Shown: positions 41,776-54,216 of the stretch, piece by piece
Layout: each line of letters starts with the position of its first letter
Numbering within the stretch: the first letter of the stretch is position 1
NCBI RefSeq assembly: GCF_001426405.1
Contig: NZ_LMEP01000023.1
Span: forward strand, 124,001 to 188,000
DNA length: 64,000 nt
Direction: 5' to 3'
DNA from: Streptomyces sp. Root1304
GTDB lineage: Bacteria > Actinomycetota > Actinomycetes > Streptomycetales > Streptomycetaceae
Made by a program: the position numbers and the translations under genes
The notes under the pieces: model-generated
The model's database searches: none
What the model saw: only the letters and a program-made list of their open reading frames with translations
What the model was told of the DNA's origin: nothing

Positions 41776-41976
41776 GGACCCCTCGCCCGACGGGTGAACG
41801 ACTCCACGGGACCACCCCCGCGCACGGGACCGCCGCCGGACCACCCCGCGCACGTCCCCGAGATCGCCGCCGAGATGCACCCGCCCCGGGGGCCCCGGAG
41901 AATGGACACCGTACGGGGTCCCTGTCCGCGACCGAGGGCGCTCCCGACGGCGTCCGACCCGGCAAGGGGGTCGACG

Positions 41977-44900
41977 ATGCCGCTGCGCCAGCCGAACCGG
42001 CCGCTCGCCGCGACCGGGACACTGCGCCGGTGGACCCTGCTGTACGTCCTGGCCGTCGTGCTCCTGACGATCGCCTATCTGCGGTACCCCTCCCGCCACA
42101 CCGCCCTGTGGGCGCTCATCGGACTCGGCGGCGTCATCGCCATCCTCGTCGGCATCCGCCTCCACAAGCCGTCCCGGCGCTGGCCCTGGCTCGTGCTCGC
42201 CGCCGCCAACCTCACCTTCGTCGGCGGCGACACCGCGTACAACGCCCTGGAGGCCTTCTTCGGCCAGACGCGGCCCTTCCCCTCCGTCGCGGACGCCCTG
42301 TACCTGGCGACGTACCCCCTCTTCGCCGTCGGCCTGTTCGGCTTCATCCGCTACCGGGCCGTCGGCCGTGACCTCGGGGTCGTCCTCGACGCGCTGATCC
42401 TCACCTCGGGCCTCGCGCTCCTCTCCTGGGTCTACCTCATCACCCCGCTCGCCCGGAGCGAGGAGATGAGCTGGACCGAGAAGGCCATCTCCATCGCCTA
42501 TCCGCTCGGCGACGTGCTGATGCTGGCGATGCTCGCCCGGCTCCTCGTCCCCGGCGGCCTCAGAACCCGGTCCGTACAGCTCCTCACCCTCGGCACCTGC
42601 GGCATCCTCGCCTCGGACGTCATCTACGTCACCCTCCAGCTCAAGGGCACCTGGCAGGTCGGCACCCCCCTCGACCTGGGCTGGGTCGTCTTCTTCACCG
42701 CCTGGGGCCTGGCCGCCCTCCACCCCTCGATGACGCTGCTCACCGAGCGCGCCCCCGAACCCGCCCCGCGCGTCGCCGAGCGGCGCCTCGCGCTGCTCGC
42801 CGGCGCCTCGCTCGTCGCCCCCGTCCTGCTCCTCCTCCAGTCGCTGCACCAGGACCGGGACGAGGACATCGCCGTCATCGCGATCTTCTCCGCGCTGATG
42901 TTCCTCCTCGTCCTCGCCCGGCTCTGGGGGATGATGAACGACCACGGCAAGTCCGAGTCGCGCGAACGCAGTCTCCGGATCGCCGCCGCGTCCCTCGTCG
43001 CCGCCCTCAGCCCCCGCGAGGTCGGCGGAGCCGTGGAGACGGCGTCCGCGACGCTCTTCGGCCCCGGCACCGGCCACCGGGTCCTCCTCCTCACCCGCGA
43101 CCGGCGGGGCGACCTCAACGCCGTGGCCACCGCGAGCCACCCCTGGAGCTGCCGTACGGGGGAACTGACCCACCACGGCACCGACGAGCCGCCCAGGCCC
43201 ACGCCCGAACCACCCCGGGCACCCGCCGGCGACTCGCCCCTCGATCCGCCGGACGGGCCGCCCCCGCCCCCCGGCCCCGCCTGGCCCGCGGCCGTCGCCG
43301 GAGGCACCCGGCTCGTCCCCGTGGCCCGGCTCGACGCCGCCGTCGCCGCGGAGCTCGCCCCCGAGCCGTACGCCCTGCTCTGCCCCCTGCGGCTCCAGGC
43401 CGCCGCGGGAGCCGAACCGCTGCTCGGCGTCCTGGTCCTCGCGGGACCCGAGAAGAAGCTCGCCGAGATCTCCGGACCGGCCCAGTCCCTCGCCTCCCAG
43501 GCGGCCCTGGCCCTCGAACGCTTCGCGCTCAGCGAGGAGGTCAACCGCCGTACCAGCGAGGCCTACTTCCGCACCCTCGTGCACAACACCTCGGACGTCA
43601 TCCTCATCGTCGACGACGACGACACCGTCCGCTACGCCAGCCCCTCCGCCGAGAGCATGTTCGGCCGCTCCCTGCTCCAGGGCACCCCGCTCACCGACCT
43701 CGTCGCCCCCGCCGACGTACCCGCCGCGCTCCGCGTCCTCGCCGACGCGCGCTCCCGGGGCGCCGTCGACGCCCGCGACGACTGGAAGCTGCTCCACGGC
43801 GGCTCTGCCGATCTGGAGGTCGAGGTCCGCTGCAGCAACCTGCGCGACGAGCGCACCGTCCACGGCCTCGTCCTCACCCTCCGGGACGTGACCGAGCAGC
43901 GGAAACTCGAACGGGAACTGACCCACCGGGCGTTCCACGACTCCCTCACCGGGCTCCCCAACCGCGTCCTCCTGCTCGAACGGGTCGAGCGCGCCCTGCT
44001 CCGGGGCCGCCGCGAATCCACCCTGACCTGCATGCTCTTCGTCGACCTCGACGACTTCAAGGTCGTCAACGACACCATGGGGCACTCCGTCGGCGACGAA
44101 CTCCTCGTCGCCGTCGCCCGCCGCCTCACCTCCGTGCTGCGGCTCACCGACACCGCGGCCCGGCTCGGCGGCGACGAGTTCGCCGTCCTCATCGAGGGCG
44201 CCCGTGAACCCCGCGACGCCGAGGCACTGGCGGCGGAGATCGTGCACACCCTCAGCCAGCCGTTCCACCTGACCGACGGAGCGGTCTCCGTCTCGACCAG
44301 CGTCGGCATCGCGACCGTGCTCGACAGCGCCCACGCCGAGGAACTCCTCGGCCACGCCGACCTCGCCCTGTACGCGGCCAAGGCCGCCGGCAAGAAGCGG
44401 TGGCGGCTCTTCCACCCGGAGTTCCACTCGCGGCTGGTCGCCCGGCACGAACTCCAGGCGGGCATGGACACGGCCATCGCGGACCACGCCTTCGCCCTGC
44501 GCTACCAGCCGATCGTGGAGGTCAGCGGCGGGGCCCCGGCCGGTCTCGAAGCACTGATCCGCTGGCCGCACGCCCGGCGCGGCCTGGTGCCGCCCGACCA
44601 GTTCATCGCCCTCGCCGAGGAGAGCGGCCACATCATGCCGCTGGGCGCCTGGGTCCTCGAACACGCCGCGCTCGACATCGCCCGCTGGCAGCGCGCCCGC
44701 CCCGGCCGGGCCCCCCTGTACGCCAGCGTCAACGTCTCCGCCCGCCAGTTCCGCGACCCCGGCTTCCTCGAGGGCGTACGGCGCACCCTGCGCTCCTCGG
44801 GGCTCGCGCCGGGCTCGCTCGTCCTGGAGCTCACCGAGACCGTCCTCATGCGCAGGGACGCCCAGATCCGGACCACCATGGCCGCCCTGAAGGACCTCGG

Positions 44901-46602
44901 CGTCTCCATCGCCATCGACGACTTCGGCACCGGGTTCTCCTCGCTGAGCTACCTCCGCGAGTTCCCCATCGACGTCCTCAAGGTCGACAAGTCGTTCATC
45001 GACGACATCACCACCGACCCGCAGCAGGTGGCGCTCGTCGAGGGCATCGTCCGCATCGCGGACGTACTCGGACTCCAGGTCGTCGCCGAGGGCATCGAGC
45101 ACGAGGAACAGCGGGCGCTCCTGGCCGAGATGGGCTGCCGGTACGGGCAGGGCTATCTCTTCGCCCGGCCCATGACCGCCCACCAGGCGGAGTCGTACCT
45201 GCACCGCGCGCCGTCCGGTGCCGAGCGCCTCGCGGTCCGTCCCCCGGCCGGCGTCGGTGGCTCCGTCCGGCCCTCCGTCCGGCTGTCGGCGAGGGGCCCC
45301 GCCCGCCCGTCGGCCGGCGCCGCCGTCCGCCCGTCCGGCACCGTACGGCACCCTCCGCGCTCCTCCCGCTGGCGCGACCTGGAGCACCTCCAGCACACCA
45401 GCCGGATGTGCGACGCCGTCATCGACGAGATCGACGGCCGCCGCATCCGGGTCGGCGACGACTGGCTCGTCGACTTCGCCTCCTGCAACTACCTGGGCCT
45501 CGACCTCGACCCGACGGTCATCGCCTCGATCGAACCGCAGGTCAGACGGTGGGGCACCCATCCCAGCTGGTCCCGTCTCCTCGGCAGCCCCCGGCTCTAC
45601 CCCCGGATCGAGGAGCGGCTCTCGGAACTCCTCGGCGCCCCCGACACCCTGCTGCTGCCCACCATCACCCTCATCCACCAGTCGGTGATCCCGGTTCTCG
45701 CGGGCACCGGGCAGGTCTTCGTCGAGGCGCAGGCCCACCGCACCGTGTACGACGGCTGCGTCGTCGCCCGGGGGCAGGGCGCCGAGATCCACCGCTTCCA
45801 CGCGGAACGGCCCGGGGAACTGGCGTCGCTGCTGCGCGGCGCGCCCGCCGACGCCGGCCGGCTGGTCTGCATGGACGGCGTCAACAGCATGACCGGCAAC
45901 TTCCCCGACCTGCCCGGCCTGGCCCGCGTCTGCCGGGAGAACGGCGCCCTCCTGTACGTCGACGACGCCCACGGCTTCGGCGTCATCGGTGAGCGCAGCC
46001 CCGGAGAGAGCAGCCCCTACGGCACCCGAGGCAACAGCATCGTCCGCCACCTCGGCGAGACCTACGAGGACCTGGTCCTCGTCGGCGGCTTCTCCAAGGC
46101 GTACTCCTCGCTCCTCGCCTTCCTCGCCGTCCCGAAGTGGCTCAAGGACCATCTGAAGGTGGCGGCCGCCCCGTACCTCTACTCGGGGCCCTCGCCGACC
46201 GCCTCGCTCGCCACCGCGCTTGCCGGACTCGACGTCAACGAGGAACGCGGCGACGAGATCAGGGCCCGGCTGTACGCCATGACGGCCCGCCTCCTCGCCC
46301 ACGTCCGGGGCCTCGGGGCCGCCACCCCCAACACGGACGGGCTGCCGATCGTCGAGATCCCCCTCGCGGACGCCGCCGACCTCGACGCCGTCGCCGCCTT
46401 CCTCTGGAAGCACGGCATCTACGTCACGCTCGCCGCCTACCCGCTCGTCCCGCGCGACCGCGTGGGCTTCCGCATCCAGGTCACCGCGGCCAACACCGAC
46501 GCCGAGATCGACCGGCTCTGCGAGGTCCTCACGGAACTCGCCGGACGCTTCCGGCTCCGCCCCGCCCGCCCCGTCGCCGCCGGCCGGACGGCGGAGAAGT
46601 GA
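41977..46602 (+). CDS. membrane-bound PAS-GGDEF-EAL cyclic-di-GMP enzyme fused to a PLP-dependent alpha-oxoamine synthase
   Basis: One uninterrupted 1541-residue frame. Residues 10-320 hold 9-10 membrane helices; about 330-500 is GAF-like; 525-640 is a PAS domain (TSEAYFRTLVHNTSDVILIV). The GGDEF domain is complete (RLGGDEFAVL, near 729) with an RxxD inhibitory site five residues before it (RLTD-TAARL-GGDEF). The EAL domain (825-1070) has EALIRW, DDFGTGFSSLSYLREFPIDV and EGIEHEEQ, so both activities look intact. After a low-complexity Pro/Arg/Ser linker, residues 1129-1530 form an alpha-oxoamine synthase like BioF or CqsA: CNYLGL, DDAHGFG, and GGFSKAYSS with the PLP lysine. AAGGGGG precedes ATG 41977. 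The next gene, a methyltransferase, overlaps its stop. Confidence 0.88.
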   Translation: MPLRQPNRPLAATGTLRRWTLLYVLAVVLLTIAYLRYPSRHTALWALIGLGGVIAILVGIRLHKPSRRWPWLVLAAANLTFVGGDTAYNALEAFFGQTRPFPSVADALYLATYPLFAVGLFGFIRYRAVGRDLGVVLDALILTSGLALLSWVYLITPLARSEEMSWTEKAISIAYPLGDVLMLAMLARLLVPGGLRTRSVQLLTLGTCGILASDVIYVTLQLKGTWQVGTPLDLGWVVFFTAWGLAALHPSMTLLTERAPEPAPRVAERRLALLAGASLVAPVLLLLQSLHQDRDEDIAVIAIFSALMFLLVLARLWGMMNDHGKSESRERSLRIAAASLVAALSPREVGGAVETASATLFGPGTGHRVLLLTRDRRGDLNAVATASHPWSCRTGELTHHGTDEPPRPTPEPPRAPAGDSPLDPPDGPPPPPGPAWPAAVAGGTRLVPVARLDAAVAAELAPEPYALLCPLRLQAAAGAEPLLGVLVLAGPEKKLAEISGPAQSLASQAALALERFALSEEVNRRTSEAYFRTLVHNTSDVILIVDDDDTVRYASPSAESMFGRSLLQGTPLTDLVAPADVPAALRVLADARSRGAVDARDDWKLLHGGSADLEVEVRCSNLRDERTVHGLVLTLRDVTEQRKLERELTHRAFHDSLTGLPNRVLLLERVERALLRGRRESTLTCMLFVDLDDFKVVNDTMGHSVGDELLVAVARRLTSVLRLTDTAARLGGDEFAVLIEGAREPRDAEALAAEIVHTLSQPFHLTDGAVSVSTSVGIATVLDSAHAEELLGHADLALYAAKAAGKKRWRLFHPEFHSRLVARHELQAGMDTAIADHAFALRYQPIVEVSGGAPAGLEALIRWPHARRGLVPPDQFIALAEESGHIMPLGAWVLEHAALDIARWQRARPGRAPLYASVNVSARQFRDPGFLEGVRRTLRSSGLAPGSLVLELTETVLMRRDAQIRTTMAALKDLGVSIAIDDFGTGFSSLSYLREFPIDVLKVDKSFIDDITTDPQQVALVEGIVRIADVLGLQVVAEGIEHEEQRALLAEMGCRYGQGYLFARPMTAHQAESYLHRAPSGAERLAVRPPAGVGGSVRPSVRLSARGPARPSAGAAVRPSGTVRHPPRSSRWRDLEHLQHTSRMCDAVIDEIDGRRIRVGDDWLVDFASCNYLGLDLDPTVIASIEPQVRRWGTHPSWSRLLGSPRLYPRIEERLSELLGAPDTLLLPTITLIHQSVIPVLAGTGQVFVEAQAHRTVYDGCVVARGQGAEIHRFHAERPGELASLLRGAPADAGRLVCMDGVNSMTGNFPDLPGLARVCRENGALLYVDDAHGFGVIGERSPGESSPYGTRGNSIVRHLGETYEDLVLVGGFSKAYSSLLAFLAVPKWLKDHLKVAAAPYLYSGPSPTASLATALAGLDVNEERGDEIRARLYAMTARLLAHVRGLGAATPNTDGLPIVEIPLADAADLDAVAAFLWKHGIYVTLAAYPLVPRDRVGFRIQVTAANTDAEIDRLCEVLTELAGRFRLRPARPVAAGRTAEK

Positions 46603-47414
46603 ACGGCGGCGAGGCGAACGCCGGAGACGTGAACGGCGGTGACGCGAGGGGTCGCCGTGCGTCGCCCCCGGCGGCCGCGACCCGGGTGCGCCGCAACCGC
46701 GACGCCGACTGGGACGCCTGGCCCGTCGCCGACTACCTCGCCGAGAACTACCGGCGGCTCCACCCCTGCGACATCGCCGTCATCCGCCACCACGCCGCCG
46801 TCTACCGGCGCCACGCCCCCGGCAGCCTGGACCGCACCCTCGAACTCGGCGCGGGCCCGAACCTCTACCCGCTGATGCTCGCGGGCGCCGCGAGCCGCCG
46901 CGTCGACGCCCTCGAACCGGGCGCCGCCGGCGCCGACTACCTCCGCCGCCAGCTCGACCGGGGGCCCGACGAGAGCTGGCAGCCCTTCTACGCCCTGTGC
47001 CGCTCCCTGGTCCCCACGCTCCCGGCCACCCTCGCGGAGGCGCTCCGCCCGGTGCGGGTGGTGCCCGGCACCGCCGCCGACCTCGTCCCCGGCACCTACG
47101 ACCTGGCCTCGATGAACTTCGTCGCCGAGAGCGTCACCGAGGACGTCGAGGAGTTCGCCGCCCTCTGCGCCGCGTTCGTCGGCGCGGTCCGGCCGGGCGG
47201 CCGGCTGATCGCCGCCTTCATGGAACGCATGCCGAGCTACCGCATCGGCACCGGTCCGGTCTGGCCCGCCTGCCCCGTCGACGAGGCCGACCTGCGCGCC
47301 GTGTTCGCGCCCCGGACGACCGGGCTGCGGATCGCCCGGGTGGCGAAGGACCTGACGCTGCCCGAGTACGGGGACACCGGCATCCTGCTCCTCGCCGCGG
47401 AACGGCCCGTGTGA
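46599..47414 (+). CDS. SAM-dependent methyltransferase, NNMT/PNMT/TEMT type
   Basis: A 271-residue class I methyltransferase. The SAM motif I is LELGAGPNLYPLML, motif II region DALEPGAAGADYL, and VPGTYDLASMNFVAESVTED is the segment typical of the NNMT/PNMT/TEMT group, which methylates amine or thioether nitrogen, sulfur or selenium. GTG 46599 overlaps the fusion gene stop; a repeat of the ribosome site and start (GGAGA-GTGAACGGCGG) offers a second GTG at 46629, which would drop a Gly/Asn-rich leader. Position suggests it modifies the oxoamine product. Confidence 0.82.
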   Translation: MNGGEANAGDVNGGDARGRRASPPAAATRVRRNRDADWDAWPVADYLAENYRRLHPCDIAVIRHHAAVYRRHAPGSLDRTLELGAGPNLYPLMLAGAASRRVDALEPGAAGADYLRRQLDRGPDESWQPFYALCRSLVPTLPATLAEALRPVRVVPGTAADLVPGTYDLASMNFVAESVTEDVEEFAALCAAFVGAVRPGGRLIAAFMERMPSYRIGTGPVWPACPVDEADLRAVFAPRTTGLRIARVAKDLTLPEYGDTGILLLAAERPV

Positions 47415-47432: not shown

Positions 47433-48725
47433 TCAGGCGTGGCGCCGGATCGTGGCCGCGTACTCCGCCAGCGAGGACCCCGGCGTCCCGTCGTACAGCT
47501 GCCGGTCGAAGGCCCACATCATGCCTTCGAGCCCGCAGGACGCCATCTGCCGGAACGCCGTCTCCGTCACCCCCGGCCGGTACGGGGACACCTGCGGCCC
47601 CGCGCTCTCCCCGGCCAGCCGGGTGAAGCCCGCGCTCCTGGCCACCGCCGCCACCCACCGCGCCGAGGACCAGTCGCGCACCGCCGCGTCGTCCGGCGCG
47701 GTCACGTCCGTGCGCGCGTCGCCGGGCGAGCAGCCGTTGTCGACGGGGTCGCCCGTGCCGTCCACGAGCGCCGTCGTGACGATCCGCACCGTGTCCCGGT
47801 GCTCGATCAGGGGGAGCGTCAGGAAGAAGCCGGCGCCCCGCGCCACGAGCCGGACCGACGGCACGTCGGTGAGCCGCCCGTCGACGGCCGCCCGCAGGTC
47901 CGAGGGGTAGAAACCGGCCCCCGGCACGAGGACCTTGAGCTCCCCCGTGTACCCGAGGGAGGTGTACAGGTCGAGCTGCCAGTTCACGCCCCCGGCCAGC
48001 GCCCCCGCGTACCAGTCGTACCAGCGCGTCACCTGCTCACGGGTGAACGGCTTCCCGTGGTACATCGCCTCCCCGGGCCGCCATCCCGGATACGGGCTGC
48101 TCTCCTGGGCGTGACTGTCGTACGCCCAGAACTCGCCGGGGCCGCCGCCCTCCGACAGCGGCGACGGATAGGCGAACTCGCCGCTCTCGTTGACGCCGAT
48201 CCGGATCGCCCAGAAGTGGCCGAGCCCGATGAGCCGGTCCACCGCGCGCGCGTAGTCGGCGACCTGCCCCCGCACGGGTTCGCTGAACACGATGTTCGGG
48301 GTGCCGGTGGACCGCTCGCCGAACTGGTTCACGAAGACCGACTCGGGGTAGGCGTTCGGCAGCCAGGACGGCGGATGGTTGAGGCCGAGCCCCGCCTCGA
48401 CGCGCAGCCCCGCCGCCCGGAAGGAGTCGAGCCGGGCCCGCAACTCGCGCGCGTAGCCCTCGTCGTACACGCCCTGCTCCGGTTCGAGCCGCCCCCAGTC
48501 GATCTGCAGGTGCGCCACCCGGATGCCGTGCGCGAACTCGGTGCGCGCCCGGTCGGGATCGGTCTGGAGGGTGCCGTACCAGTACGGGCCCGGCGCCGGG
48601 GCCGGTTCCCGCCCCGGGTTCCCGTGCCGCAGCACACCGAAGGCCCCCACGAGCAGCAGGAGGACCGCGAGGACCGCCAGAGCGGCCGCCCCGCCCCGGC
48701 GCCCCGACCACCTGCGTCCCGTCAT
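47433..48725 (-). CDS. membrane-anchored glycoside hydrolase-like protein (TIM-barrel, GH42/GH5-like)
   Basis: A 430-residue protein with an N-terminal membrane anchor (AALAVLAVLLLLVGAFGVLR) and an extracytoplasmic TIM-barrel. HLQIDWGRLEPEQGVYDEGY is the typical start of a beta-galactosidase or cellulase-type barrel, and GVNESGEFAYPSPL carries the likely acid/base glutamate after strand 4; the nucleophile is not obvious. It is the last gene of the glycan operon, overlapping the GT4 stop by 4 nt, and may trim or release the polymer made by the other genes. GH family is uncertain. Confidence 0.78.
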   Translation of the reverse strand: MTGRRWSGRRGGAAALAVLAVLLLLVGAFGVLRHGNPGREPAPAPGPYWYGTLQTDPDRARTEFAHGIRVAHLQIDWGRLEPEQGVYDEGYARELRARLDSFRAAGLRVEAGLGLNHPPSWLPNAYPESVFVNQFGERSTGTPNIVFSEPVRGQVADYARAVDRLIGLGHFWAIRIGVNESGEFAYPSPLSEGGGPGEFWAYDSHAQESSPYPGWRPGEAMYHGKPFTREQVTRWYDWYAGALAGGVNWQLDLYTSLGYTGELKVLVPGAGFYPSDLRAAVDGRLTDVPSVRLVARGAGFFLTLPLIEHRDTVRIVTTALVDGTGDPVDNGCSPGDARTDVTAPDDAAVRDWSSARWVAAVARSAGFTRLAGESAGPQVSPYRPGVTETAFRQMASCGLEGMMWAFDRQLYDGTPGSSLAEYAATIRRHA

Positions 48726-49813
48726 GACAGCAGCTCCCGGTAGAGCGCCGCGTAGCGGGCCGCGAACCGTTCGGGGCCGAAGTGCTCCTCGACGAGGGAG
48801 CGGCCCCGCTCCGCGAGCACGTCCCAGGACCTCGGCTGGTCGAGCAGCCAGGCCAGCTGCTGCCCCGTGCGCCGGGCGTCACCGGCCGGAGCCCGCAGCA
48901 CCGCGTGGCCGAAGTCCGCGAACTGCGGGAGGTCGCTGAGGATCGCGGGCCGCCCCGAGGCGAGCGCCTGGAGCACGGTGAGCGGGATGTCCGCCTTGCC
49001 GCCGAGCACCGCGGGCGGGAACAGCAGCACATGGACGGAGGCGAGGAGCGCGTGCATGTCGTCGACGTAGCCGAGTACCTCGAAGTCCGTGAGGCCCGAG
49101 GCCCCGGCCCGCTCGCGCAGTGCCTCGTCGAGCGCGCCGGGGTCCTGGCCGGGCCGTCCGCGCATCGCGAGGACCAGCCGGAACCGCGCCCCGGCCCGTA
49201 CGGCCTCCGCCGCCGCGTCGATCGCGATCTCCGCCCCGCCGTCCGGGTCGTGGTGCCCGGCGAACAGGACCGTCGGGAAGCCCTCGGGGCGCGGCAGATA
49301 CGGCCACGCGTCGAGGCCGATCATCGGCGGCACGACGCGCACGTCCCCGAAGTCCGCTGCCCGCAGCCGTCGTGCCATGGATTCGGAGAGGGCGATCGTG
49401 GTCCCCAGCGGCCGGGTGCGGGCCAGGAAGCGGTTGTCCATCACCCCGGGCACCGTGTGGACCACCGGCCGCCCGCCGAGCAGCAGCGGGCGCAGCCACG
49501 AGAACGCGGGGAAGGTGCGGCCGATCGTCAGGAAGGCGTGCACCAGGTCGACCCGGCGGGCGAACACGGCCCCGAGGAGCGCGGACTGCACCCGCTCGGG
49601 CACGTGCGGCACGCCGTCGCGGGAGAGCAGCCGGACCGGCCGCCCGCGCGTCGGCGGCGCCTGGCGGCGGCGCGGCCACTGGGAGAACCAGACGAAGTCC
49701 ACGTCCGGCAGGGCGCCGAGGACGTCGGAGGCGAGCCGCACGTCACAGCCCTCCGCCCCGTCCAGCGGACTGCTGGTCAGGAGCAGGACACGGGGCCGGT
49801 CAGCGCGACGCAT
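48722..49813 (-). CDS. glycosyltransferase family 4
   Basis: A 363-residue GT-B transferase. The N-terminal Rossmann half begins RVLLLTSSPLDGAEGCDVRL, and the C-terminal half has TVLFAGHHDPDGGAEIAIDA, a LGYVDDMHALLASVHVLLFP stretch and PLTVLQALASGRPAI, where the second acidic residue of the EX7E motif is missing. It adds a sugar from a nucleotide donor. The ATG has GGAGG 6 nt upstream and overlaps the GT39 gene by 14 nt. The sugar is unknown. Confidence 0.88.
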   Translation of the reverse strand: MRRADRPRVLLLTSSPLDGAEGCDVRLASDVLGALPDVDFVWFSQWPRRRQAPPTRGRPVRLLSRDGVPHVPERVQSALLGAVFARRVDLVHAFLTIGRTFPAFSWLRPLLLGGRPVVHTVPGVMDNRFLARTRPLGTTIALSESMARRLRAADFGDVRVVPPMIGLDAWPYLPRPEGFPTVLFAGHHDPDGGAEIAIDAAAEAVRAGARFRLVLAMRGRPGQDPGALDEALRERAGASGLTDFEVLGYVDDMHALLASVHVLLFPPAVLGGKADIPLTVLQALASGRPAILSDLPQFADFGHAVLRAPAGDARRTGQQLAWLLDQPRSWDVLAERGRSLVEEHFGPERFAARYAALYRELLS

Positions 49814-51485
49814 CGCCCGCCTCCGTCACCGGCGGCGCCGGCAGCGGCCCCGCCGTCGGACCGGGCGCCGGGAGCAGCGGCCCCGTCACGGCGGAGCCCG
49901 GCACGGCGAGTTCCGTCAGGTCCGGTCCCGGCAGCGGCGCGGGGAGCCGGTACAGGGCGAGGGTGCCGTACGTGGGCCCGTGGAACACGAACAGCGGCCG
50001 CAGCCCGTCCGTCAGCCCGCGCACCTCCGCGACCGAGGAACGCCCGTACCCCTGCTGGATGACCCGCCAGGGCACGATGAGGTACCCGGCGTCGTTCGCC
50101 GTCCGCTCCGCGGGAGTGACCCAGTGGCCTAGGCGGTAGGTGTCCTCCAGCGCCCAGGTGGTCACGCCCCGGGTCCGCTCGCCGTCCACGGTGACGATGC
50201 CGCTGCCCGCCGGCACGTGGGTGAGCAGATACGCCCGGAGCCGGGCGAAGCCGTCGTCGGGCGTCCAGCGGTCGTGGGCGTAGACCGCGGCGGGGGCGGC
50301 GAGCAGCGCGACGAGGGCGCCGCACGCCACCAGGCGCAGCCCGCGCCGGTGGCGGGACGGCACCGGCAGGGTGACGGCGAGCGCCACCAGGTTCGGCACG
50401 AACAGCAGATAGAGCGCCTGCTCCTCCAGGGTGCCGATGGCGAGCGCGTACCCGAGGGTGAGGATCGCCGCGATGTGGAAGAGGGTCAGCAGCCGGTACA
50501 CCGGTTCCCGGTGGCGCAGCAGCAGCACGAGGGCCACCGGGGTGAGCGCGAGCAGCAGGTACGTGCTCGCGTAGCCGGGGAGTTCGGCGACGAGCCGGCC
50601 CGAGAGGGAGGGCGTGCCCGCGGCGTTGAACCCGGTCTCCTGCACGATCCCGAGGAGCCGCCGCACACCGGAGGTCTTCGCCTCCCAGAAGGCGTCCATG
50701 TGCCCGAACCCGGCCACCAGGGCCACGTACACGGCGTATGCGGCGACGGTCACCGAGGCGGTCAGGGCGACCAGCCGGCGGGGTGGACCCCAGCCGAGGG
50801 CGAGGGCGGCGAGCAGCGGCAGCACGGCGATCAGCACCGCGTGGTCCTTCGTCAGGATCGCGAGTCCGAAGAACAGTCCGGCGAGCACGGCCCGCGCCCG
50901 GGGCCGGGTGGGCGGGTCGGGGCGGGTGAGCCCCACCAGGACCAGCATGCCCGCGAGGACCCACATCATCGTGGCCGTTTCGAGCAGCACCCGGTCGTTC
51001 TGGCGGATGCAGAACTGGTCCAGGGCGAAGACCAGGGCGGCGACGGCGCCCGCGCCGCGCGAGCGGACGCGCGCCACCAGGAAGACCAGCAGGGCGGCGG
51101 TGACCCCGGCGAGCAGGGCGTTGAGCACCCGGGAGGAGTGCACGCCCGCGATGACGTCGGCGTGCTCCCCGACCACCTTCGTCCAGCCGGCCTCCAGATA
51201 GAAGTAGCCGGGCGGGTGGAGGAAGAACAGCCCCTCGTCGTTCCCGGGGAAGCCGCCCGCGGCGGCACTCTCCCCGAGCCTGCGGTAGATCGGCTCGTCG
51301 ACGAACAGGTCCCCGGCGCGGCTGATCTCCAGGAGGCGCAGGACCGTGGTGAGCACGGCGGCCAGGACCGCGTAGACGTACGTGGGGAGGGGGCCGCGCC
51401 GGACGCGCCGGCGCGGACGCGGGGTGGGTTCCGGCGCCGCCGGCCCGGCCCCGACGGCCACGGGTGCGGTGCGCTCGACGGTCAT
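49800..51485 (-). CDS. glycosyltransferase family 39 (ArnT/PMT-like) membrane protein
   Basis: A 561-residue integral membrane protein with about 11-12 helices. The N-terminal extracytoplasmic loop carries the catalytic acid pattern LFVDEPIYRRLGES, as in ArnT and PMT enzymes that use polyprenyl-phosphate sugars outside the membrane. A C-terminal soluble domain starts near PAGSGIVTVDGERTRG. It would transfer a lipid-linked sugar onto the growing glycan or a protein. GGAGG precedes ATG 51485, which overlaps the deacetylase stop. Confidence 0.88.
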   Translation of the reverse strand: MTVERTAPVAVGAGPAAPEPTPRPRRRVRRGPLPTYVYAVLAAVLTTVLRLLEISRAGDLFVDEPIYRRLGESAAAGGFPGNDEGLFFLHPPGYFYLEAGWTKVVGEHADVIAGVHSSRVLNALLAGVTAALLVFLVARVRSRGAGAVAALVFALDQFCIRQNDRVLLETATMMWVLAGMLVLVGLTRPDPPTRPRARAVLAGLFFGLAILTKDHAVLIAVLPLLAALALGWGPPRRLVALTASVTVAAYAVYVALVAGFGHMDAFWEAKTSGVRRLLGIVQETGFNAAGTPSLSGRLVAELPGYASTYLLLALTPVALVLLLRHREPVYRLLTLFHIAAILTLGYALAIGTLEEQALYLLFVPNLVALAVTLPVPSRHRRGLRLVACGALVALLAAPAAVYAHDRWTPDDGFARLRAYLLTHVPAGSGIVTVDGERTRGVTTWALEDTYRLGHWVTPAERTANDAGYLIVPWRVIQQGYGRSSVAEVRGLTDGLRPLFVFHGPTYGTLALYRLPAPLPGPDLTELAVPGSAVTGPLLPAPGPTAGPLPAPPVTEAGDASR

Positions 51486-52354
51486 GACACACCTCCGGCG
51501 GTGTGGAGCCCGCGGCCGGGGGCCCGCGCGCGGCCCGGATCCGCGGTCCAGGGACCGGACTCGGGCAGCAGGTACACCTCGGGCGCGCGCGGGATGCGGC
51601 CCCCGGGGAACAGGGCGTCCGCCTGCGTCCGGTAGCCGCGGATCAGCTCCGCCTTGCGGTCGAGGCCCCGCTCCCAGGTGTGGGCCACGAGCCGGTGCCG
51701 GCCGGTGAACCCCGGGTCGGGGTGCGCGTGCTGGTCGTACGGGAAGTCGCTGTAGTACACGACCCGGCGCCCGCAGCGCTCGGCGGCGGTGCGCACCAGG
51801 ACGTGGTCGGCGTGCCCGCCCACGCCGAGCGGCGCGAGGACGAGCCCGCCGGTGGTGCCCGGCAGCAGGGCGTCGACGGTCGCCCCGACCGCGCGCAGGG
51901 TTCCGTCGTCGTGCCCGGAGACCCGGCCGCGGGCGAGGTGCAGGCGGTACGTCGGGTAGACGTGCGTCAGCTCGGGCAGCAGCCGCGAGAGGCGCTCCGT
52001 GCCCGGCCGGGGCCGGGGCATCCGCCGGAAGAGACCGTCGACCAGGCCGACGTGACGCCAGCGGACGTCCAGCCGCTCCAGGACCCGCCGGTCCTCCGCC
52101 CGCCGCTCGGCGAAGAGGCACTCCGCGTCCTCGGCGCCGGTCTGCTTGAGGTACTGGCGGGCGGAGAGGGTGTACGGCGGTGGCGCGGCCCGGGTGAACA
52201 GCGTGGCGACGGTCACGGGCGCCCGCCGCCCCGCCCAGCCGAGCAGCCCGCCGCAGGACAGCACGGCGTCGTCGAGGTGCGGCGAGAGCACCAGGACCGG
52301 GACGCCCGATCCGATGACGGTCCGTACGAATCCGGTCAGCGGGTCGTCTGCCAT
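51482..52354 (-). CDS. PIG-L family deacetylase
   Basis: A 290-residue LmbE-like zinc hydrolase. The metal site VLVLSPHLDDAVLSCGG (PHxDD) and the distal GGHADHVLVR histidines are complete. Members remove acetyl from N-acetylglucosamine or related sugars of mycothiol, GPI-like lipids and glycans. In this operon it probably de-acetylates a lipid- or polymer-bound amino sugar. It overlaps the kinase-GT4 gene by 19 nt and the GT39 gene by 4 nt. Confidence 0.92.
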   Translation of the reverse strand: MADDPLTGFVRTVIGSGVPVLVLSPHLDDAVLSCGGLLGWAGRRAPVTVATLFTRAAPPPYTLSARQYLKQTGAEDAECLFAERRAEDRRVLERLDVRWRHVGLVDGLFRRMPRPRPGTERLSRLLPELTHVYPTYRLHLARGRVSGHDDGTLRAVGATVDALLPGTTGGLVLAPLGVGGHADHVLVRTAAERCGRRVVYYSDFPYDQHAHPDPGFTGRHRLVAHTWERGLDRKAELIRGYRTQADALFPGGRIPRAPEVYLLPESGPWTADPGRARAPGRGLHTAGGVS

Positions 52355-54216
52355 GACGCACCCCTCTTCCTCGGCCGGCGAGGGCCGGCCGGAGTGTCCA
52401 GAAGCCGGTGGGCCAGGGCCAGGTAGCGGCCCGTCATCTCGTCCCAGGTGTACCGCCGGGCGGCGAGCCCGGAGCGCCGGCCGAGCCGGCGGCGGAGCGC
52501 CGCGTCGGTGGCCAGCTCGTTCATCCGTTCCGCGAGCGCCGCGACGTCGAAGGGCGGTACGGCGACGTCGCCGCCGTCGCGCATCCAGCGCAGCGCGGGC
52601 AGGTCGAAGTGGAGGACCGGCTTGCCGTACGACATGGCTTCGAGGGCCACCAGGCCGAAGGTCTCGTGCCGGGACGGCATGGCCAGGAACGCGCTGTCGC
52701 GCAGGAGTTGCCGCTTGCGGTCCTCCTCGACGTACCCCACCCAGTGGATCCGGGGCCGGGGCCCGTGCCGGCGGGCGGCGAGGAGCGCGGCCAGCCGGCG
52801 TTCCTCCGCCGGGGTGCCACTGCCCGCGATGAGCAGGTCGAGCGGTGGCGCGGCGCGCCCGTACGCGTCGAGCAGCAGGTCGAGGCCCTTGGTCCAGGTG
52901 TCGATCCGGCCCAGGAAGAGGATGAACTGCCCGGAGCCGAGGTCGGTCTCGTCGAGCTCGCGCGGCTCCACGCCGTTGGCGATGACCTGGACGTCGGCGC
53001 GGGGGCTGAGGCGGCGGACCACCGCGCCGTCGGCCGTGTTCATCACCACGATGTGCCGGTAGCAGCGCAGTCCCAGCCGTTCGACCAGGAAGAACGGGAT
53101 GTGGTAGCGGCGCCACAGGGCCTCCGCGCTGCGGCCCTGGTCGATGCCGACGACGGGGGCGCCGCCGGTCAGCGGCAGGAAGCTCGTCGAGAACGGGGGA
53201 GTGAAGCTCTCCAGCCACAGGTCGTGCGGGATGCGGCGGGCCACGAACGGCAGCATCGCGAGGAACAGCACCTGCCCGGCGCGCGGTCCGGCGCGGCCCA
53301 CCGGCAGCCGGACGTACCGGATGCCGTCGCGTTCCCCCGAGCCGCCGCTGCGGCCCGCCGTCACCACGGTCACCCGGTAGTCCTCGGCGAGCCGCCGGGC
53401 CACCTTGCAGATCACCAGGGCGCCGCCGCCTCGGTAGGCGGGGTTCTCCGCGTCGTCGTAACTGGACAGCACCACGTGCCGCCGGGCGGGACTCCCGGAC
53501 TCCTCGGGGGTCCGGTCCCGGTCCCGTTCCGCTTCCAGGATCCGGTCGAGGGCCGTCGCCGCCACCAGGGACGGGGGCCGCTCGCCGTCGATCCGCACGA
53601 TCCGCGAGAGCCGTCGCGACCAGTTCCGGTACCGGCTCCACCAGGCCGTCGGGGGCCCGGCGACCTCCTCCCAGCCCCGGCCGCGGAGGGTGTCGGGGCC
53701 GGTCTGCACGAGCAGGGTCAGCCGGTAGCGTGCGGCGATCCGGCGGTAGACGTGCGCCGCCCGCGAGGTCTCGGGCAGGTCGAACTTCACCAGGCCGTCC
53801 AGCGGGCCCCGGTCCGTCACGACCACCGCCCGCCGGCCGCGGGCACGCGCGCGCGTACGGGCGAGCAGCTCGGCGGCCGCGATCCGGGCGGCGAGTTCGC
53901 CCGCGTCGAGGAACGCGTGGGCGCGGCGCAGCCGGGATCCCCGGCGCTCGGGATCCCCGGCGCGCCGTGCCCACCCGCCCCCCGCCGGTTCCCCCGCTTC
54001 TCCCAGCCGAGGCGGAACGACGAACCGGCGGCACAGGAAGCAGCCGTAGCAGTGGGTGCTGACGACGGTCAGACCGCGTGCGTCGAGCAGCGTCGTCAGC
54101 CGGCCGACCAGCGAGGACTTGCCCGAGCCGTCGGGTCCGGAGACGGCGACGAGCAGGGGCCGCCGCGGCCCGTTCCCGGTGCCCGTGGTGGTGCGTCCGG
54201 CACCCCTGGTGGTCAT
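52336..54216 (-). CDS. P-loop kinase domain (thymidylate-kinase-like) fused to a GT4 glycosyltransferase
   Basis: A 626-residue two-domain protein. Residues 18-230 form a P-loop kinase like thymidylate kinase: Walker A VSGPDGSGKSSLVGRL and the DRGPLDGLVKFDLPE segment with the conserved DRG. Residues about 245-610 form a GT4: VVLSSYDDAENPAYRGGGAL, SGQFILFLGRIDTWTKGLDL, SRHETFGLVALEAMSYGKPV with the EX7E motif (E of HETFG to E of ALEAM). The kinase could phosphorylate a sugar or a polyprenol-type acceptor for the transferase. Both ends overlap neighbours by 4 and 19 nt. Confidence 0.85.
   Translation of the reverse strand: MTTRGAGRTTTGTGNGPRRPLLVAVSGPDGSGKSSLVGRLTTLLDARGLTVVSTHCYGCFLCRRFVVPPRLGEAGEPAGGGWARRAGDPERRGSRLRRAHAFLDAGELAARIAAAELLARTRARARGRRAVVVTDRGPLDGLVKFDLPETSRAAHVYRRIAARYRLTLLVQTGPDTLRGRGWEEVAGPPTAWWSRYRNWSRRLSRIVRIDGERPPSLVAATALDRILEAERDRDRTPEESGSPARRHVVLSSYDDAENPAYRGGGALVICKVARRLAEDYRVTVVTAGRSGGSGERDGIRYVRLPVGRAGPRAGQVLFLAMLPFVARRIPHDLWLESFTPPFSTSFLPLTGGAPVVGIDQGRSAEALWRRYHIPFFLVERLGLRCYRHIVVMNTADGAVVRRLSPRADVQVIANGVEPRELDETDLGSGQFILFLGRIDTWTKGLDLLLDAYGRAAPPLDLLIAGSGTPAEERRLAALLAARRHGPRPRIHWVGYVEEDRKRQLLRDSAFLAMPSRHETFGLVALEAMSYGKPVLHFDLPALRWMRDGGDVAVPPFDVAALAERMNELATDAALRRRLGRRSGLAARRYTWDEMTGRYLALAHRLLDTPAGPRRPRKRGASWQTTR

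Follow-up and report, generated by a model that had tools for sequence, protein, structure and literature searches.

Organisation of the Locus

The window, a 64,000-nucleotide stretch of DNA from Streptomyces sp. Root1304, carries a gene in which a membrane PAS-GGDEF-EAL protein continues in frame into a putative alpha-oxoamine synthase (OS), followed by a methyltransferase gene (Table 1). The first-pass annotation had described a single frame joining the two parts, and this frame is indeed uninterrupted, running stop-free from position 41794 to the stop at 46602. The start ATG at 41977 is preceded by AAGGGGG, and the closest relatives align from residue 1. The Pfam scores of GGDEF, EAL and Aminotran_1_2 far exceed the cut-offs, and the N-terminal membrane domain (residues 12–316) has no match in Pfam. 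The low-complexity linker lies where the annotation had placed it, at about 45200–45360.

Table 1. Features of the locus, with positions in the window and residues of the fused protein.
Feature	Positions	Strand	Residues	Basis and details
Fused gene, membrane PAS-GGDEF-EAL + putative alpha-oxoamine synthase (OS)	41977..46602	+	1541 aa	Open frame, domain matches, fusion conserved
N-terminal membrane domain	42010..42924	+	12–316	About 9 hydrophobic segments (hydropathy)
PAS domain	43564..43902	+	530–642	Pfam
GGDEF domain	43930..44400	+	652–808	Pfam; RxxD site 44140–44151, GGDEF motif 44167–44181
EAL domain	44470..45171	+	832–1065	Pfam; EAL motif 44548–44556
Linker, low-complexity	45202..45360	+	1076–1128	Predicted disordered
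OS domain	45361..46599	+	1129–1541	Pfam Aminotran_1_2 at 1165–1518; PLP lysine codon 46096–46098
SAM-dependent methyltransferase	46599..47414	+		Candidate GTG start 46599, with a 4-nt overlap of the OS stop

The methyltransferase is akin to the SCO2525 family (123 bits, cut-off 240) and to NNMT/PNMT/TEMT, scoring below the cut-off in both cases. Its homologue lies downstream in 111 of the 123 loci compared and was not found in the other 12, some of which stop soon after OS. An MFS gene directly follows OS in 12 of the 123 loci, basal ones included.

Cyclic-di-GMP Module

The protein has both domains of a GGDEF-EAL turnover protein with intact motifs. The GGDEF motif, the RxxD site and the EAL acids are all present, as annotated, and both halves of the fused protein are intact and conserved. 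In alignment A2, the GGDEF, RxxD, EAL, DDFG and K.DK motifs were found in 46 of 46 sequences. Among 95 thinned loci (79 fused, 16 not), GGDEF, EAL and K.DK were kept in all, and RxxD and DDFG in 94 each; L239 has a true change at the RxxD arginine and L097 at the second D of DDFG. Motif states were judged on the alignment, the pattern scan alone having missed 7 of the 95 rows.

Oxoamine Synthase Domain

A structure model of the OS domain (pLDDT 77) was compared with known structures using VIA-align. The Z-score was 40.9 to BioF (5jay; rmsd 2.6, 368 aligned residues) and 40.4 to serine palmitoyltransferase (SPT, 3a2b). BioF, SPT and ThaOS gave Z-scores of 40–41, the set of BioF, SPT, ThaOS, KBL and ALAS about 38–41 overall, and CqsA 35.8. 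The model thus places OS, as a predicted structure, in PLP fold type I, within the BioF/SPT/KBL/ALAS group. The best sequence match in the PDB was serine palmitoyltransferase (2x8u, E = 2.8e-35), with CqsA (2wk7) at E = 2e-8. Closeness to CqsA was not supported: OS is nearer in sequence to the SPT, KBL, BioF and ALAS entries, which score better, and on this ranking an identity with CqsA was rejected. With NCBIfam, OS stayed under the cut-off of every OS-type model among the matches listed (25 of 43), e.g., bioF (173.8 bits, cut-off 426.45), gly_Cac_T_rel (142 bits, cut-off 535.4) and SPT (153.9 bits, cut-off 500).

In an alignment of 43 OS sequences, residues H126, D201, H204 and R371 of the domain were kept in 43/43 and K246 in 42/43. 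We take these to be the stacking His, the Asp/His pair, the C-terminal carboxylate-binding Arg and the PLP lysine, respectively. The exception, L193, is the only OS of the 43 with Q in place of the PLP lysine; it may be an inactive synthase within a fused protein, or an error. The fold and catalytic residues are those of SPT, BioF, KBL and ThaOS; unlike these enzymes, the present OS is fused to a c-di-GMP protein. A further difference is the WGTHPSWSR motif, invariant in the OS sets, which stands where SPT has a glycine-rich stretch. The annotation of a complete PLP enzyme is borne out by the fold and the catalytic residues. Judging by sequence and model, the domain appears to be a member of the alpha-oxoamine synthase family, with putative activity and substrates, and both enzymes of the protein, the c-di-GMP module and OS, look active.

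Distribution of the Fusion

A search of 392 genomes of the genus found OS, with E = 1e-80 or better, in 67. Upstream DNA (up to 6 kb, less at contig ends) was taken for 66 loci besides the window; L099, which stops at the contig edge, was unreadable upstream. In every one of the 66 loci that could be read upstream, the c-di-GMP part immediately precedes OS, in L104 in pieces. By frame check, 55 of the 66 are fused, the window included, and in 11 the c-di-GMP part is in another frame, separated by a stop, or broken. The 55 comprise 54 scored as fused and L079, whose sole stop is the natural C-terminal one. Of the 80 named loci, which are the best of 336 relatives, 66 carry the fusion; in each of the 14 others a c-di-GMP gene precedes OS on the same strand, with only the EAL part found in L240. 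Pooling both sets and counting identical OS once gave 123 loci: 99 fused (97 scored, plus L079 and L217, whose only stop is at the natural C-terminus), 23 not fused and one unreadable. Two loci have remnants of OS: L160 has OS split across two frames, and L161 has fragments of OS and of the methyltransferase between otherwise conserved flanks.

The membrane domain of the fused protein (very probably CdgF, see below) was present in 33 of 199 genomes of the genus, which include all 29 OS genomes of that range and four without OS. G196, with an OS remnant only, is not among the 33. No match to OS at ≥60% identity was found in 72,556 plasmid records, in a search that may leave out near relatives.

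Linker and Reading Frame

The join of the c-di-GMP part and OS is a genuine fusion, common to many Streptomyces. The contrary explanation is that the join is accidental, caused by a lost stop, a sequencing error or a chance open frame, and that two proteins are made. Long open frames are common at high G+C, and L057 shows a spurious frame of 1481 codons even though the two genes there are in different frames. However, the frame is continuous, with no stop, in 99 of the 122 loci with upstream DNA. The first-pass annotation had regarded a stop and a new start in the linker of relatives as telling against the fusion. Most relatives have no such arrangement; separate or broken genes do occur in 23 of the 122 loci.

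The start codons also speak against an accident. The only in-frame ATG, GTG or TTG between 45176 and 45420 of the window is the ATG at 45406, already within the conserved N-terminus of OS, so that OS is left without a good start of its own. The linker of fused loci is 18–116 residues long (median 33), and in 41 of the 97 scored fused loci it has no in-frame ATG or GTG, one being present in the other 56. In 33 independent fused pairs, picked on the OS DNA, linker substitutions at codon positions 1, 2 and 3 numbered 175, 183 and 252 (p = 4e-5). This preference for third positions, likewise unfavourable to an accidental join, is weaker in the linker (252/610) than in OS (1945/2936); the linker therefore looks translated and loosely constrained. 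Linker indels were multiples of three in 38 of 84 cases (p = 0.03), a weak effect in a DNA alignment of low-complexity sequence. An accidental join is thus highly improbable, and a lost stop or chance frame was rejected on the conservation of the fusion.

In a 1021-residue AlphaFold model, residues 562–612 of the model, which make up most of the linker, have pLDDT below 50, and with a pTM of 0.43 the model offers no trusted arrangement of OS relative to EAL. The linker is probably a flexible tether, as predicted from its modelled disorder.

Probable Orthology with CdgF

According to PMC6205966, S. venezuelae has eight chromosomal c-di-GMP genes with GGDEF. Genome G015 (8.22 Mb) gave eight GGDEF matches, the same number as in the published table. 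Their positions correlate with the vnz gene numbers with r = 0.9998 for the eight genes, with almost no offset and a largest misfit of 74 kb; the genes were paired in chromosome order, which itself raises r, and a syntenic relative would fit too. The fused gene of G015, 98% identical over GGDEF-EAL, falls on cdgF (vnz02140/sven0451), within 15 kb. We infer that G015 is S. venezuelae, and the fused gene is very probably the CdgF orthologue in its full-length form.

CdgF is given in PMC6205966 as a possibly bifunctional 10TM-PAS-PAC-GGDEF-EAL protein; its Table 1 thus lists 10 TM, compared with the approximately nine hydrophobic segments seen here. C-terminally FLAG-tagged CdgF was present only in the membrane fraction (PMC6205966), which is expected if the OS end stays attached, and also of the c-di-GMP part alone if the gene model ended before OS. 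The same source describes CdgF as low in abundance and cdgF as one of the genes with the lowest expression; deleting it gave no developmental phenotype. PMC12096830 reports cdgF to be upregulated at hyphal fragmentation in two RNase mutants, and a 2026 paper calls the function of CdgF undefined.

The main texts of PMC6205966, PMC7911125 and PMC13232838 make no mention of aminotransferase or pyridoxal, and in PMC6205966 oxononanoate and synthase are also unmentioned. The S. ghanaensis table of PMC7911125 has no such fused protein among the entries available. A description of a fusion of an oxoamine synthase with a GGDEF or c-di-GMP protein was not found among the papers listed by searches of open-licence PMC articles. 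Synthase/receptor pairs and multi-domain GGDEF-EAL proteins are already known.

Evolution of the Fused Protein

The c-di-GMP part and OS are adjacent separate genes in Dactylosporangium, in one MAG and in one further family. In Dactylosporangium, separate PAS-GGDEF-EAL, OS and MFS genes follow one another in a row in 5/5 cases (MFS assigned by Pfam in L231); we read this order as the ancestral operon. In the OS tree, with the Frankia-type sequences set as the root, Dactylosporangium and G592 branch off first, all with separate genes. L158, from another genus of the Streptomycetaceae, also has separate genes; most other Streptomycetaceae have the fusion, which later split several times. The tree has seven changes between the fused and separate states on 102 rows (a quick tree, in which 28 of 99 inner branches are unresolved) and fits one fusion followed by several later splits. 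Splits recur in 11 Streptomyces rows, which implies that a single chain is not essential. The distances of OS and PAS-GGDEF-EAL are strongly correlated (Mantel r 0.89, reached in 0/999 shuffles), and, by this sequence measure, the two parts are inherited together.

The Frankia-type loci (L142–L155, family code f18, which we take to be Frankia) have a stand-alone OS. A different GGDEF-EAL gene lies within about 3 kb of it in 12 of 14 loci, which share ancestry; the two without it are L148 and L149, the latter meeting a contig edge soon after OS. The GGDEF-EAL protein is 49.6% identical over 421 aa to RmdB of G000 and 35–42% identical to that of the window. An Aat-like gene occurs in 11/14 of these loci and a type-11 methyltransferase gene in 9/14 (Pfam check in L146). 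In most of them, the methyltransferase gene lies on one side of OS and the Aat-like gene, with the GGDEF-EAL gene beside it, on the other. The c-di-GMP block of L145 and L147 has changed sides relative to OS and is still linked. The idea that the Frankia-type OS occupies the Streptomyces rmdB locus did not hold: in G000 and G015, rmdB is flanked by ligA-like and gat-like genes (named by eye from their sequences), with neither Aat nor OS present.

These observations bear on the possibility that the fusion only fixes the stoichiometry and membrane position of an OS acting on membrane or lipid substrates, e.g., long-chain acyl groups converted to sphingoid-like bases, with no functional link to c-di-GMP. 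The closest PDB sequence being a serine palmitoyltransferase would agree with it, as would the loci where the genes are separate or broken. However, linkage to GGDEF-EAL recurs, with a different protein, in the Frankia-type genomes (with the shared ancestry noted above), and OS is co-inherited with PAS-GGDEF-EAL. We regard this explanation as quite unlikely.

CdgF-like Proteins without OS

Twelve CdgF-like loci without OS were examined. In seven (L267, L268, L271, L273, L274, L275 and L276), a gene for an A-PCP-thioester reductase follows directly, and in four of these seven a Leu_Phe_trans (Aat-like) gene also lies behind it (checked by Pfam in L268). The seven reductase-linked CdgF-like proteins form one clade with support of 100, beside the OS clade of the Streptomycetaceae (the neighbouring branches have 89 and 93, not starred). 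The other five (L266, L269, L270, L272 and L277) fall within the OS clade and are best read, from their position in the tree, as losses of OS; OS can therefore be lost while the c-di-GMP part stays. Overall, the comparison suggests that the CdgF-like family has exchanged its partner, which is OS in one case and a reductase-type NRPS set in the other.

An A-PCP-R protein and an L/F transferase are enzymes of the livipeptin-type tRNA-dependent peptide aldehyde pathway (PMC10548850). Counterparts of these two adjoin the related clade of CdgF-like proteins, and none of the livipeptin pathway enzymes was found in the OS operon itself. The text of PMC10548850 makes no mention of GGDEF, di-GMP, cyclase or phosphodiesterase.

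Proposed Function

Our preferred reading, held tentatively and at somewhat short of even confidence, is that CdgF is a small-molecule synthase coupled in one polypeptide to a membrane c-di-GMP transducer which senses the product, in a CqsA/CqsS-like manner. OS, whose fold and catalytic residues are in place, would form an alpha-amino ketone from an acyl thioester and an amino acid by decarboxylative condensation. Gene order suggests that the product of the overlapping methyltransferase gene would modify this amino-ketone and that the MFS pump, where encoded, would export the product. The N-terminal membrane domain and PAS might then sense the product or a close derivative, and sensing could set the balance between GGDEF and EAL activities. 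The disordered linker would tether the synthase to the membrane in a fixed 1:1 ratio. The reading builds on the single frame, the intact active-site residues, the co-inheritance of the parts, the recurring methylation and export genes nearby and the different synthase set beside the related clade; the steps of signalling and sensing are proposed from gene order and by analogy. Weighing against it are the five losses of OS, the recurrent splits, the Q of L193, the low expression of cdgF and the lack of a developmental effect of its deletion, and the loci in which no methyltransferase gene was found.

The nearest working analogue is the CqsA/CqsS synthase/receptor pair of Vibrio, in which an alpha-oxoamine synthase is likewise encoded with a multi-TM signalling protein. 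There, synthase and receptor are neighbours, whereas in Streptomyces they are usually one chain; the output in Vibrio passes through the histidine kinase CqsS, and here it would be c-di-GMP turnover by GGDEF-EAL. The likeness to the receptor pair is, on the present side, one of gene adjacency and co-inheritance.

A serious rival, though in our estimate an unlikely one, reverses the direction of control. Here, c-di-GMP, bound or turned over by GGDEF/EAL, would switch the attached OS, and a metabolite would be timed to a life-cycle stage with no need for product sensing. With its RxxD and EAL sites intact, the module could serve as a c-di-GMP sensor, the adjoining export and methylation genes fit a secreted metabolite, and c-di-GMP has been reported to control the synthesis of natural products in streptomycetes (PMC7026642). 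Such control does not, however, need a membrane domain of 9–10 segments. Tight allostery is not favoured either by the disordered tether or by the occurrence of the parts as separate proteins in Dactylosporangium, G592 and the Frankia-type genomes, and the related clade has a different enzyme set in place of OS. In our judgement, the direction from product to c-di-GMP fits the gene neighbourhood better than that from c-di-GMP to OS, which the first-pass annotation had put forward.

The reading of CdgF as a product-sensing protein can be extended, in a form that is possible but doubtful. CdgF would be a signal synthase and receptor-transducer in one chain, whose amino-ketone is methylated and exported and whose own membrane domain reads the outside level into c-di-GMP. 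The CdgF-like proteins would then be a receptor platform with an exchangeable synthase, namely OS in one branch and, in the other, a reductase-type NRPS together with a tRNA-dependent transferase.

The literature describes c-di-GMP as helping to time Streptomyces sporulation and influencing antibiotic production, and the signals perceived by Streptomyces GGDEF/EAL proteins as unknown (PMC6205966). Judging from the fusion, these bacteria seem to tie a small molecule of their own making to an internal decision signal. A c-di-GMP protein with its own synthase names a candidate ligand source and offers a genetic handle; a cdgF deletion mutant and a tagged allele have already been made in S. venezuelae, a harmless model species (PMC6205966). 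A candidate rule for genome mining also follows, by which CdgF-like proteins may point to an adjoining small-molecule pathway.

Other Features of the Loci

A defence system was considered and rejected: PADLOC gave the fused protein only a weak stretch match to SspA (E = 6e-4), inside the aminotransferase fold, and gave no match for the methyltransferase. The Streptomyces locus L088 carries both modules, with a fused CdgF-OS gene and methyltransferase gene followed by convergent Aat-like and A-PCP-reductase genes. Beside the methyltransferase gene, the minus strand of the window (47433–54034) encodes a GH42-like protein, a glycosyltransferase and a PMT-like membrane protein. Members of glycosyltransferase cluster c2 lie close to OS in 21 loci, the window included.
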